A stretch of 64,000 nucleotides of DNA from contig CALUWK010000004.1 in NCBI GenBank assembly GCA_944324475.1, positions 1 through 64,000 on the forward strand, written 5' to 3'. The notes under the pieces are model-generated. The model searched no databases and was not told the DNA's origin. It worked only from the letters and a program-made list of their open reading frames with translations. The DNA is from Candidatus Gastranaerophilales bacterium. GTDB taxonomy: Bacteria > Cyanobacteriota > Vampirovibrionia > Gastranaerophilales > Gastranaerophilaceae. Made by a program: the position numbers and the translations under genes. This document shows positions 2,104 to 6,805 of this stretch, piece by piece. Every line of letters begins with the position of its first letter. Within the stretch, counting starts at the first letter, position 1.

Positions 2104-3474
2104 ATGGATTTTAAAACAGCCGTCATATTACAAGGAAAAATATATAAATTATTAGAAAAATTCGGTATAGATAGAAATATTCATCTGGATTCTTTCATAG
2201 ATAATAACATGCCTGATATTATGTCAAGATTACAAACTTATGCAAAAGATTATAAAATTGCAATTTCTTCTACAAATGGTAAAAGAACGGTTGTTGATTT
2301 AATTAATCATGTTTTATCCGAGGCAGAAAAAAGTTACATAACAAACGTTGTAAAATCAGGAAAAAAATATCCCGTTTTAACTTCAATAATTTTAGATTTA
2401 TCAAGGACTTTTGATGTTTTTGGAAGTGATTATGAAAAAGATTATTATGTAATGGCTATGGATGAATTTGAACTTGGCGGATATTTTAATTCGATGAAGT
2501 TTGATTATCTTTTATTAAATAATCTTTTTTATGATCAAAAGGATAATTGTTCTTTGGTTGAAAAAAAAGAAAAAATTAGAGAAGCCCTTATTTTAAACTC
2601 AAAAACAAGTTTAATCATTAATGCGGATGAGCCAATGTTTTTTAAAATAGATGAGTTTAAAAGTGATGTTGCCATAAATAAAAAAAGAAATAAATTTTAT
2701 TTTGGATTTGAGAAAATAGAATATAATGATACAAATGAAAAATACGTTCAATATAATGATATTTTAAGATGTCCTATATGTGGTTGTAAATTGGATTATA
2801 AAAAAAGATTTTATTCACATTTGGGGCAATATGACTGTGAATGTGGCTTTAAGCGTCCAAAACTTGATATTAGTGCTACTGCTAAGGTTTTTTATGATTA
2901 TACATTTTTAAATGTTTTTTATAATGGTAATAAATATGCTTTTAAATTACCTTTTGGTGGAGTGTATAATGCATATAATGCTCTGGCGGCAATAGCTTTG
3001 GCTTTTAATTTGGGGATAGACAGAAAAACAATAGCATCTGCATTTGAAAGTTATTTGAATATATGCTCAAGGGATGAAATTGTTAAGTACAAAGGAAAAA
3101 ATGTAAAAATTAAAATAATAAAAAATCCTGTTTCATTGTCTGAAACAACAAGGGAGCTTTTAGGAAATAAAAATTCGAAAGTAATTTTTTGTTTAAATGA
3201 TGAACCTGAAGACGGAGTTGATACAAGTTGGATTTGGGGGGCAAATTTGGAGTCTTTAAGGAATTTTGAAAATAAAGTTTATGTTTGTTCAAATCGCTTT
3301 GATGATATGGCCTTAAGATTAAAATATGCGGGAGTTAATCCGTGTTTAATTATTATGGATAATTCGGTTAAAAATACTATAAAATCTTGTTATTGGGATA
3401 CAGAAGAAAATGAAAAAATAATAATTTTTGCAACTCCTTCTGTGTTGAATGAAGTTTATGGTACTTTAAGATAA
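2104..3474 (+). CDS. MurT-like Mur ligase family protein
   Basis: A 456-residue protein resembling MurT, the ligase subunit that with the glutaminase GatD amidates the D-Glu of lipid II. An N-terminal Mur-ligase ATPase region carries the P-loop sequence STNGKRT (Lys60); Mur ligases normally read TNGKTT or TNGKST, so Arg61 sits where a Ser/Thr is expected. A zinc-ribbon insertion typical of MurT is present: Cys223, Cys226, Cys245 and Cys247, with an extra Cys228. A C-terminal Mur-ligase domain follows, containing the FCLNDEPEDGVDTSW stretch. An AAGGA ribosome binding site lies just upstream of the ATG. No gatD is adjacent or elsewhere in the window. The family call is good; catalytic activity and partner are uncertain because of the altered P-loop. 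Confidence 0.75.
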   Translation: MDFKTAVILQGKIYKLLEKFGIDRNIHLDSFIDNNMPDIMSRLQTYAKDYKIAISSTNGKRTVVDLINHVLSEAEKSYITNVVKSGKKYPVLTSIILDLSRTFDVFGSDYEKDYYVMAMDEFELGGYFNSMKFDYLLLNNLFYDQKDNCSLVEKKEKIREALILNSKTSLIINADEPMFFKIDEFKSDVAINKKRNKFYFGFEKIEYNDTNEKYVQYNDILRCPICGCKLDYKKRFYSHLGQYDCECGFKRPKLDISATAKVFYDYTFLNVFYNGNKYAFKLPFGGVYNAYNALAAIALAFNLGIDRKTIASAFESYLNICSRDEIVKYKGKNVKIKIIKNPVSLSETTRELLGNKNSKVIFCLNDEPEDGVDTSWIWGANLESLRNFENKVYVCSNRFDDMALRLKYAGVNPCLIIMDNSVKNTIKSCYWDTEENEKIIIFATPSVLNEVYGTLR

Positions 3475-3600: not shown

Positions 3601-3870
3601 ATGTACCAAGATCAAACTCTAGTGTGTGAAGATTGCGGAAAGGAATTCGTATTCACAGCAGGAGAACAAGAGTTTTATGCTCAGAAGGGACTCGTTAATA
3701 CTCCAAAAAGATGTCCTGATTGTCGAAAAGCTCGCAGAAGAAAATCTAGAAGAAAAATGTATGATGCAATTTGTTCTCAGTGCGGTGCGGAAACAAAAGT
3801 TCCTTTTAAGCCGGTTGAAGGTAAAGAAATTTATTGTAAAGAATGCTACGCAAAAAGACAAGAAGTATAA
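3601..3870 (+). CDS. Zinc-ribbon protein
   Basis: An 89-residue basic protein with four CxxC motifs: CEDC and CPDC in the first half, CSQC and CKEC in the second, separated by a strongly basic linker (KARRRKSRRK). This matches small zinc-ribbon proteins annotated as probable zinc-binding domain proteins; their function is unknown, though the basic linker suggests nucleic-acid contact. AAGGAG precedes the ATG with good spacing. A possible promoter lies upstream (TTGCAA at 3484 and TATAAT at 3505, with a short spacer), giving a leader of roughly 80 nt. The gene has its own terminator, so it is probably monocistronic. Confidence 0.8.
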   Translation: MYQDQTLVCEDCGKEFVFTAGEQEFYAQKGLVNTPKRCPDCRKARRRKSRRKMYDAICSQCGAETKVPFKPVEGKEIYCKECYAKRQEV

Positions 3871-3968: not shown

Positions 3969-5816
3969 ATGATGTCATCCGGTCAATCGGTAATATCTGA
4001 CAGTGAAAATATAATAGAAGCAACTCAAGAGAATAAAAATAGGGTAGATAATACTAAATTAAAGGCTGTGATAAGAGCTTTTATAGCTAATATTGGTATA
4101 GCTTTTGTTAAGTTTATTTGTTTTTTGTTTTCAAAGAGTTCTGCAATGTTAGCTGAAGCGATTCACAGCGGGGTTGATTCATTTAACAGTATTTGTTTAT
4201 TGGTTGGTATAAAGAGAGGTTCTCGTCCTGCAGATAAAGAACATCCTTTTGGATACGGTCTTGAGGCTAATATTTGGGCTATGTTTGCGGCTTTATTGAT
4301 GTTGGGTGGTACTTTCGTTGCTATTTTTCATGGGATAGATAAGTTTTTTAACCCGCATGGGGCAGTTGAGCTTTTAAAAAATTATAATTATATTGCTATT
4401 GCGTTAATTATTAGTATGTTTTTTGAAGCTTGGGCAGTGTCAAGTGCTACAAATGCCGTTTTAGATGAAGCTCAGATAGTTGAAAAAAATTTTGTAAAAA
4501 GATTTTTTATATCTTTAAAATATGTAAGGAAGGTTCAAAGTCCTACTACAAAGTTTGTTTGGTATGAAGATACTGCTGCGTTTTCGGGTGTTTTTATAGC
4601 TTTGGTTGCTTTATCTGTTTCAAAATTTGTTATGCCTTCGGAATATGCTTATATTCCCGATGCTGTTGCATCTATTATAATTGGTATTATTTTGTTTTGT
4701 CTTGCAATATATTTAATCAGAAATAACGTTAGTAGCTTAACTGTTCAAGCAGCTCAACCAAGAGTAGAGGAGATTATAAGAAATGTTGCCGGTACAATTC
4801 ATGGTATAAGTAATGTTGTTGAATTAAAAACAATGGATTTGGGAACTTCAGGTCTCGTTATCAATATGACTATTGAAGTTAATCCTGAAACACAGATGAA
4901 GGATGCTGATGATATTGCTCAAATGCTTGAAAGAAAAATAAAAAATTATGTGAAAAATGTAAATCATGTCACAATAGAACTTCAAGCGCATGATGAAGAA
5001 GATAATTGGGAAGAAAAGTTTGAAAAATTAATCAAAGAAGGCGAAAAAATTGGAACAATAGATAATCATGAAGCAACGATGTTATCTAATTTCTTCTCTT
5101 TTGCAAATACTGTTGTTAAAGAAATTATGGTGCCTAGAACGGAAATTTGTTTTGTTAATGCAAATCAAACCATAGATGAATTATCAGAAATTATTATAAA
5201 TTCTGGTCATACTCGAATTCCTATGTATGAGGAAAATATAGATAATTTAGTTGGTATGATTAATGCTAAAGATGTTTTAAAAGTAATTAAAAATAATAAT
5301 GTTTCTGAAGATTTTTCAATTAAGTCTTTGGCAAGAGATATTTTGATAGTCCCCGAGAATAAATTTATAAGTGATTTGTTGTCTGATTTTACATCTTCTA
5401 AAAATCAAATAGCTGCTGTTGTTGATGAGCATGGCGGAATTGCAGGTATAGTCACTATTGAAGATATTATTGAGGAAATAATTGGCGAGATTTATGATGA
5501 ATTTGATAAAATTGAAACTCCTGAAATAGTTAAAATAGAAGATAATATTTTGAGTGTTTCGTCTAAAACAAGCATTGAAGATATAAATGAGAAGTTTGAT
5601 TTAGATATTCCAAATGAAGATTTTCAAACTATTGGTGGCTATGTTTTTGGGCTCTTGGGCAGGGAGCCTGAAATTAATGATGTTGTTGAAGATAAAAATA
5701 TTACATATACTATTTTAGAACTTGATGGTATAAAAATAACGAGAATAAAAATGCAAAAAAGCACACCTTTTGTGGATAAAGATGAAAATAATGAAAGTGT
5801 TGAGGGTGAAGAATGA
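3969..5816 (+). CDS. Fused cation diffusion facilitator and CorC-type CBS protein
   Basis: A 615-residue protein combining two metal-transport modules. About residues 30-340 form a CDF transporter of the ZnT9-like type: AIHSGVDS carries the HxxxD metal site, HPFGYGLE and the YEDTAAFSG segment are characteristic of that subgroup, and a cytoplasmic dimerisation domain follows. About residues 340-380 (LIKEGEKIG...) match the linker that precedes CBS domains in CorC/HlyC/CNNM proteins. Residues 385-505 are a CBS pair starting with EIMVPRTEI (Met387) and including VVDEHGGIAGIVTIEDI. Residues about 525-600 are the CorC_HlyC C-terminal domain. The usual DUF21 membrane domain of CorC proteins is absent; the CDF part takes its place. 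Two ATGs (3969, 3972) share an AAGGG site. The stop overlaps gpsA by 4 nt. The role is inferred: divalent metal export with nucleotide-sensing CBS control. Confidence 0.9.
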   Translation: MMSSGQSVISDSENIIEATQENKNRVDNTKLKAVIRAFIANIGIAFVKFICFLFSKSSAMLAEAIHSGVDSFNSICLLVGIKRGSRPADKEHPFGYGLEANIWAMFAALLMLGGTFVAIFHGIDKFFNPHGAVELLKNYNYIAIALIISMFFEAWAVSSATNAVLDEAQIVEKNFVKRFFISLKYVRKVQSPTTKFVWYEDTAAFSGVFIALVALSVSKFVMPSEYAYIPDAVASIIIGIILFCLAIYLIRNNVSSLTVQAAQPRVEEIIRNVAGTIHGISNVVELKTMDLGTSGLVINMTIEVNPETQMKDADDIAQMLERKIKNYVKNVNHVTIELQAHDEEDNWEEKFEKLIKEGEKIGTIDNHEATMLSNFFSFANTVVKEIMVPRTEICFVNANQTIDELSEIIINSGHTRIPMYEENIDNLVGMINAKDVLKVIKNNNVSEDFSIKSLARDILIVPENKFISDLLSDFTSSKNQIAAVVDEHGGIAGIVTIEDIIEEIIGEIYDEFDKIETPEIVKIEDNILSVSSKTSIEDINEKFDLDIPNEDFQTIGGYVFGLLGREPEINDVVEDKNITYTILELDGIKITRIKMQKSTPFVDKDENNESVEGEE

Positions 5817-6805
5817 AGTTGGCGGTTTTGGGTCCAGGATGCTGGGGTTTAACTATTGCAAAATTGTTAAATAATAATTTTGATGATATTGTTATTTGGG
5901 GCAGAAAGCAAGATATTTCGCCCATGCTTTTAAATGAAAAAAAAATTGATAAACCTCTTAAAATTGAATTGGATAAGAAGGTTCAAATTACTTCTGATTT
6001 AAAATCGGCGTTGTATGGCGCAGATATTATTTTGCTTGTTGTTGCAACATCAGGTATAAGGGCTGTAGTCGAGCAAATTAAGCAGGTTGGCATAGAAAAA
6101 AATCAAATTCTTGTTAATTTGTCTAAGGGTCTTGAATTGCCATCTTTAAAGAGAATGTCAGAGGTAATTTTAGAAATTTTGCCCGATATTAAATTTGCTG
6201 TTCTTTCTGGTCCCACATTGGCAAGGGAAATTATAGAAGGTCATCCAACTCTTGCTACGGTTGCTTCACCTGATATGGTCGTTGCTAAAAAAGTGCAGGA
6301 ATTTTTAAATGTTCCTTCAAAGTTTAGGTTGTACGCTAATTCTGATGTTATAGGTGTTGAATTGGGTGGAAGTTTGAAAAATGTTATTGCTATCGCGTCA
6401 GGTTTTGCAAGTGCTATGGGTCTTGGAGATAATTTAAGAGGGTCGCTTTTAACTCGTGGTATGGCTGAGATGGTTAGAGTTGGAATAGCTTTAGGTGCTA
6501 AGCCTCAAACATTATATGGTTTATCTGGAATGGGAGATTTGATAGCAACTGCTTCAAGTCCTTATTCAAGGAATTATACAGTAGGCTCTATGCTTGCAAA
6601 GGGTAAAAAAATTGATGATATTTTATTGGAGCTGGGTTCTGTTGCAGAAGGTGTTAAAACTTCAAAGGCATTATGCGAGTTAGCTTTTAAATTGGGAATT
6701 GACGTGCCAGTTTCAACTGCTATCTATGAAGCAGTATATACTGATATTACGCCAAAAGAAATTTTGGATAAATTAATGAATAGAAAGTTGAAGGAAGAAG
6801 ATTAA
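5813..6805 (+). CDS. gpsA: Glycerol-3-phosphate dehydrogenase [NAD(P)+]
   Basis: A cytoplasmic enzyme that reduces dihydroxyacetone phosphate to sn-glycerol-3-phosphate for phospholipid synthesis. At 330 residues it is the normal length. The N-terminus has the Rossmann motif GPGCWG; NLSKGLE, LSGPTLA and the C-terminal ELGGSLKNVIAIASG and GLSGMGDL signatures are all present. It starts inside the end of the CDF-CorC gene (ATGA overlap) and its stop shares a base with the next start (TAATG), so the three genes are probably translationally coupled. Confidence 0.95.
   Translation: MKLAVLGPGCWGLTIAKLLNNNFDDIVIWGRKQDISPMLLNEKKIDKPLKIELDKKVQITSDLKSALYGADIILLVVATSGIRAVVEQIKQVGIEKNQILVNLSKGLELPSLKRMSEVILEILPDIKFAVLSGPTLAREIIEGHPTLATVASPDMVVAKKVQEFLNVPSKFRLYANSDVIGVELGGSLKNVIAIASGFASAMGLGDNLRGSLLTRGMAEMVRVGIALGAKPQTLYGLSGMGDLIATASSPYSRNYTVGSMLAKGKKIDDILLELGSVAEGVKTSKALCELAFKLGIDVPVSTAIYEAVYTDITPKEILDKLMNRKLKEED

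Follow-up and report, generated by a model that had tools for sequence, protein, structure and literature searches.

Proteins of the CNNM/CorB/CorC group, among them MtCorB, TpCorC and PaeA, join a CNNM (DUF21) membrane domain to a CBS pair and a CorC_HlyC domain. In MtCorB, the CBS pair contacts Mg-ATP via S234, R235, T313 and D316, and loss of ATP binding in CNNM/CorB proteins abolishes both CBS dimerisation and Mg2+ efflux (PMC8242095). Related cytoplasmic parts occur on other membrane proteins: MgpA (YoaE) and YegH have the arrangement TerC-CBS-CorC_HlyC, while CvrA is built as Na+/H+ exchanger-RCK-CorC_HlyC (PMC12421838). A 2025 paper describes the function of the CorC domain as unknown, and the CBS/CorC part has been proposed to sense cytoplasmic cations (PMC12421838). 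In the part of a transporter-regulation review drawn on here, CBS control of CNNM proteins and zinc control of cation diffusion facilitator (CDF) proteins at their cytoplasmic dimerisation domain (CTD) are treated separately, and no CDF with CBS domains appears (PMC10710835).

A gene near the start of a 64,000-nucleotide stretch of Candidatus Gastranaerophilales DNA (contig CALUWK010000004.1; the whole stretch is referred to as the window) brings the two families together in a single protein. Its whole cytoplasmic half is like that of CNNM/CorB/CorC proteins, but a CDF transporter stands in place of the CNNM/DUF21 membrane domain. It follows the same principle as MgpA and YegH, in which an unrelated membrane domain precedes the CBS-CorC part, although theirs is TerC. 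As in CvrA, a CorC_HlyC domain ends another kind of transporter; CvrA, however, has no CBS pair and a different transporter. With YiiP (FieF) and the ZnT exporters it has in common the six-helix fold, the HxxxD motif of TM2 and the dimerisation CTD, but it differs from them in having, as aligned, ED..A rather than HxxxD in TM5, in being without the YiiP CTD zinc ligands, and in carrying an additional C-terminal module of 270 residues. A subfamily of stand-alone CDFs has the same TM2/TM5 site, without the CBS-CorC module. The first-pass annotation knew of no described member, and no published CDF-CBS-CorC protein was found in the open-access literature either. It had, however, missed the precedent: a CBS-CorC part on a non-CNNM transporter is known in principle, and it is the combination with a CDF that is apparently new.

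Architecture of the fusion gene

The gene is a single frame of 615 codons, running from an ATG at 3969 to a stop at 5814-5816 with zero internal stops (Table 1). Pfam recognises Cation_efflux (PF01545; E 2.7e-32, 112.6 bits against a cut-off of 26.6), ZT_dimer (E 8.2e-9) and two CBS domains (E 4.4e-15), both above their curated cut-offs, and CorC_HlyC (PF03471; E 1.5e-17, 63.8 bits against a cut-off of 27), with no match to the CNNM/DUF21 membrane domain (PF01595) in the 615-residue protein. Among NCBIfam models, TIGR01297 matches the CDF part (E 2e-43, 148.7 bits against a cut-off of 82.35) and the CorC model matches residues 338-597 (E 1.7e-48). Among solved structures, E. coli CorC (4hg0) gives the best match to the C-terminal half, in an unbroken alignment over residues 340-594.

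Table 1. Positions, in the window, of the fusion gene, its parts and the following gene
Feature	Positions	Strand	Remarks
CDF-CBS-CorC fusion gene	3969..5816	+	615 aa, one frame
CDF transmembrane part, Cation_efflux, residues 35-257	4071..4739	+	Pfam and predicted model
CDF cytoplasmic dimerisation domain, ZT_dimer, residues 266-337	4764..4979	+	Without YiiP zinc ligands
CorC-type linker, predicted helical hairpin, residues 343-381	4995..5111	+	Counterpart: MtCorB acidic helical bundle
CBS pair, residues 383-506	5115..5486	+	Mg-ATP-contacting T415, R416, T496, D499 kept
CorC_HlyC domain, residues 522-597	5532..5759	+	Pfam
gpsA, glycerol-3-phosphate dehydrogenase	5813..6805	+	4-base ATGA overlap with fusion gene

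The predicted model places six helices of transmembrane length in the CDF part, at residues 12-55 (TM1 being the later part), 58-83, 98-127, 139-168, 192-220 and 228-258, followed by a ferredoxin-like CTD, an arrangement for which Foldseek returned YiiP and ZnT structures; the other half was matched to CorC and MtCorB. The AlphaFold model is of a monomer, with a pTM of 0.48, so that the placement of the two halves relative to each other in it is tentative. The two modules meet between the final CTD strand of the CDF part, near residue 340, and W347, at what is a domain boundary on both sides. The likeness of the linker to its MtCorB counterpart is one of position and predicted form; here it is acidic, with 11 D/E within residues 342-378, an acidity that differs between family members.

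Distribution and origin of the fusion

All genome sets compared were drawn samples. Of 289 sampled Melainabacteria genomes, 68 carry the fusion protein, and an independent search of the 289 with the CDF part alone again gave 68 genomes, each with a frame of 609-686 codons; no unfused copy of this CDF type was found in any of them. The first-pass annotation had described a CDF and a CorC-type CBS module in one continuous frame, with a true domain boundary at the join rather than two genes read together, and this is borne out by the Pfam matches, by the open reading frame and by the orthologues: the junction is free of stops in 65 orthologues read full length, which come from independent assemblies and range down to ~37% identity, and the two parts are joined in 68 of 68 carriers. 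Two-gene homologues in close relatives, and a sequencing error that removed a stop at the junction, are thereby both answered in favour of a real fusion. The idea that a lost stop or an assembly join has merged two adjacent genes is refuted by this identical, unbroken architecture and has next to no probability left. The only parallel found for it is an Azospirillum plasmid on which CDF and CorC are encoded by two successive, separate genes, but that CorC half branches elsewhere in the tree.

In a wider sample of the phylum every match fell inside the Melainabacteria class, and in a scan of named genomes, where the matches listed were mostly ordinary CorC proteins, the carriers named among the matches listed were Candidatus Gastranaerophilales (Melainabacteria). 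The carriers are gut-dwelling relatives of the cyanobacteria. In the family to which the window belongs occurrence is patchy, several genera being without the fusion gene, which suggests losses. In-frame TGA codons considered in two genomes (G040, G045) proved to be mere read-through beyond the normal C-terminus. Candidate fusions outside the class, in Actinomycetota and Pseudomonadota (G783, G740, G754, G719, G954, G1097), were likewise rejected, their long frames being due to N-terminal run-in, with no CBS-CorC part.

A tree of the CDF part that also included 20 stand-alone relatives and 10 further CDFs gathered 27 of 27 sampled fusions into one clade (SH-aLRT 98), and a tree of the C-terminal half with 73 CorC proteins likewise gave a single fusion clade (SH-aLRT 98). 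Both were built by a quick method; a CDF tree enlarged with Bacillota and Chloroflexota relatives, built by a careful one, supported the fusion clade at 100/99. One well-supported clade for each half, analysed separately, points to a single old fusion that would have been inherited and conserved ever since. Both trees also divide the fusions alike, with a deep split that sets Gastranaerophilales apart from all others; joint inheritance of the two halves would lead one to expect such agreement.

In the tree of the C-terminal half, the fusions have as their closest neighbour a CNNM-type CorC (L188; PF01595 confirmed) from a fusion-less genome of the same class (SH-aLRT 92). This fits the replacement of a CNNM membrane domain by a CDF at domain boundaries, and upholds the first-pass description of a CorC-type protein whose membrane module has been exchanged. 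An origin of this half from a soluble, YbeX-like CorC had been considered because E. coli CorC, which is without a membrane domain, gave the best PDB and NCBIfam match; it was rejected, as soluble CorCs branch elsewhere and the same-class CNNM-type protein is nearest.

The CDF part itself is a member of a separate CDF subfamily whose TM5 motif is unusual, and its sister group consists of stand-alone CDFs of ~310-350 residues that have ED..A in TM5 and are without the CBS-CorC module. Such proteins were found in 44 of 246 sampled genomes of Actinomycetota, 89 of 299 of Pseudomonadota, 11 of 179 of Bacillota and 5 of 151 of Chloroflexota. In the CDF part, the fusions share 17 invariant or almost invariant positions that are less constant in these relatives. 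The CDF outside the class that is most like those of the fusions comes from Bacillota (L205; G1226:C245:4-873) and has 39% identity to P0001; the contig start truncates it close to the point at which a fused module would be expected, and no CorC half was found elsewhere in the G1226 assembly, so that this copy may be either stand-alone or fused. Three other Bacillota stand-alone CDFs (L206, L207 and L215) stop soon after a D-D-W or K-D-W stretch, which resembles the start of the fusion linker, EDNW. On the plasmid of Azospirillum ramasamyi (L149 1399-4080; NZ_CP029834.1), a CDF gene of the same subfamily is followed 400 bases on, on the same strand, by a separate CNNM-type CorC gene, which adjoins replication and partition genes.

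The gene gpsA adjoins the fusion gene throughout the genus and not outside it, and so does not belong to the system. On the upstream side, the immediate neighbour in the window is a small gene (3601-3870) encoding two treble-clef zinc fingers (zf_Tbcl, zf_Tbcl_2), which adjoins the fusion in part of the genus only, and a MurT-like Mur ligase gene farther upstream (2104-3474), identified by reading only, also stays beside the fusion in part of the genus. In three members of another family of the class (L051, L054 and L063; family f9) the fusion adjoins a gene of 130-150 codons that matches no Pfam family, beyond which lies flhA. The gene following the fusion in L026 encodes a flagellin, and in the window flagellar rod-type genes are found from 11620 onward. 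No conserved metal-related neighbour gene was seen in the neighbourhoods compared, and searches at gathering thresholds gave no metal riboswitch, so neither source points to a substrate.

Metal site, CTD and nucleotide contacts

TM2 carries the motif H66xxxD70, in line with the HxxxD or DxxxD of CDF metal sites, and TM5 carries E200 and D201 followed by xx and A204. In an alignment with E. coli FieF (YiiP), E200 stands at H153 and A204 at D157; the TM5 alignment is uncertain by a few residues, and a shift of that size may set D201 on D157. None of the four residues H66, D70, E200 and D201 varies among the fusions, and they are retained by at least 90% of the stand-alone relatives. As this TM5 motif differs from the HxxxD seen in zinc exporters of proven function, metal transport by the fusion stays putative. 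The first-pass annotation called the CDF part ZnT9-like, a label that stays tentative: the published modelled site of human ZnT9 (SLC30A9) is HD-DN (PMC5837213), which does not match ED..A.

In the fusion, the positions of the YiiP CTD ligands H232, H248, H283 and D285 are occupied by V, T, E and Q. These ligands are missing in the stand-alone relatives too, so their loss is not a consequence of the fusion; without them, the role of main cytoplasmic sensor probably falls to the CBS-CorC module. In that module, S234 and R235 of MtCorB correspond by alignment to T415 and R416, and T313 and D316 to T496 and D499. Among 27 of 27 members T496 and D499 are invariant, while position 416 is R or K and position 415 is T or S. 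At the position of MtCorB T207 the fusion has V388 (V or I across its family), and E. coli CorC likewise has I there. Because the residues contacting Mg-ATP are kept, gating of the exporter through the CBS pair is plausible.

Proposed gating by Mg-ATP and its alternatives

Taken together, these features lead us to favour, with some reservation, a reading in which the protein would be a homodimeric CDF exporter of divalent metal, gated by Mg-ATP through the attached CNNM/CorC cytoplasmic half. For the narrower proposal, in which cellular Mg-ATP (or free Mg2+) acts directly, via a captured CorC module, to control the exporter, our expectation is evenly balanced. CDF proteins work as homodimers, with transport under the control of their CTDs, and CorC CBS pairs dimerise on Mg-ATP, according to work on MtCorB (PMC8242095) and to the part of the review mentioned above (PMC10710835).

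By analogy with both, the fusion would form a homodimer, in which a complete cytoplasmic half, comprising linker hairpin, CBS pair and CorC_HlyC domain, is attached where the CDF dimerisation domain naturally ends. Binding of Mg-ATP between two CBS pairs would cause them to dimerise, and the hairpin may relay this movement so that the two CDF CTDs are drawn together. In YiiP it is zinc binding that makes the CTDs move together and thereby controls transport. Export by the fusion would be opened at high Mg-ATP or high free Mg2+, and the substrate would be a divalent metal (Zn2+, Mn2+, Fe2+ or Co2+, with Mg2+ less likely).

An alternative that we consider unlikely, though the strongest of those weighed, is that the protein exports mainly Mg2+ (or Co2+), the CDF substrate having shifted to the ion sensed by the CorC part, and that it serves as a substitute or backup for a CNNM-type CorC. 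All characterised proteins with a CorC domain are tied to cation efflux, several of them to Mg2+ or Co2+ (PMC12421838), and a TM5 without the canonical HxxxD, together with the hard acidic residues D70, E200 and D201, would suit Mg2+ or Mn2+. However, H66 in TM2, typical of Zn2+-type sites, is kept, and the same site is present in stand-alone relatives that have no CorC part, so it did not evolve with the module. The window's genome also encodes an ordinary CNNM-type CorC (L068; G000:C9:45698-46459), with a PF01595 match, and the fusion therefore does not simply replace such a protein.

It is rather improbable that the C-terminal module acts on other partners instead of the fused pore, with the fusion providing only a membrane anchor. 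The idea draws on the soluble CorC of E. coli and Salmonella, which is believed to regulate a transporter yet to be identified (PMC12421838), but the closest relative of the fusion's C-terminal half is a membrane-bound protein, a CNNM-type CorC, this half lies apart from the soluble groups, and its joining to the CDF part is without exception among the carriers. The 17 fusion-specific fixed positions of the CDF part are consistent with adaptation to the module, though no proof of it.

Less probable again is a CDF part dead in transport that serves as a membrane-bound metal sensor or scaffold. Dead metal sites usually drift, which is difficult to reconcile with the conservation of the four site residues in both fusions and relatives; in its favour are the change of the TM5 HxxxD to ED..A and the example of ZnT6, which has lost the motif and does not transport (PMC10932157).

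The fusion bears on two open questions, namely the role of CorC_HlyC and the way in which CBS pairs signal to the membrane part. Both become testable in a chimera made by nature whose transporter part belongs to a structurally well-understood family. With the same module now seen on CNNM, TerC and CDF membrane parts, these could be compared or exchanged in vitro. The fusion is also an example of a domain swap that a single bacterial class has retained since ancient times, and it suggests a new control for CDF exporters, whose known regulation is by zinc at their own CTD. If the proposed gating by Mg-ATP is true, this would be, as far as we know, the first CDF with nucleotide gating, the CBS-CorC half would be a portable regulator, and in these bacteria the export of trace metals would be coupled to energy and magnesium status.
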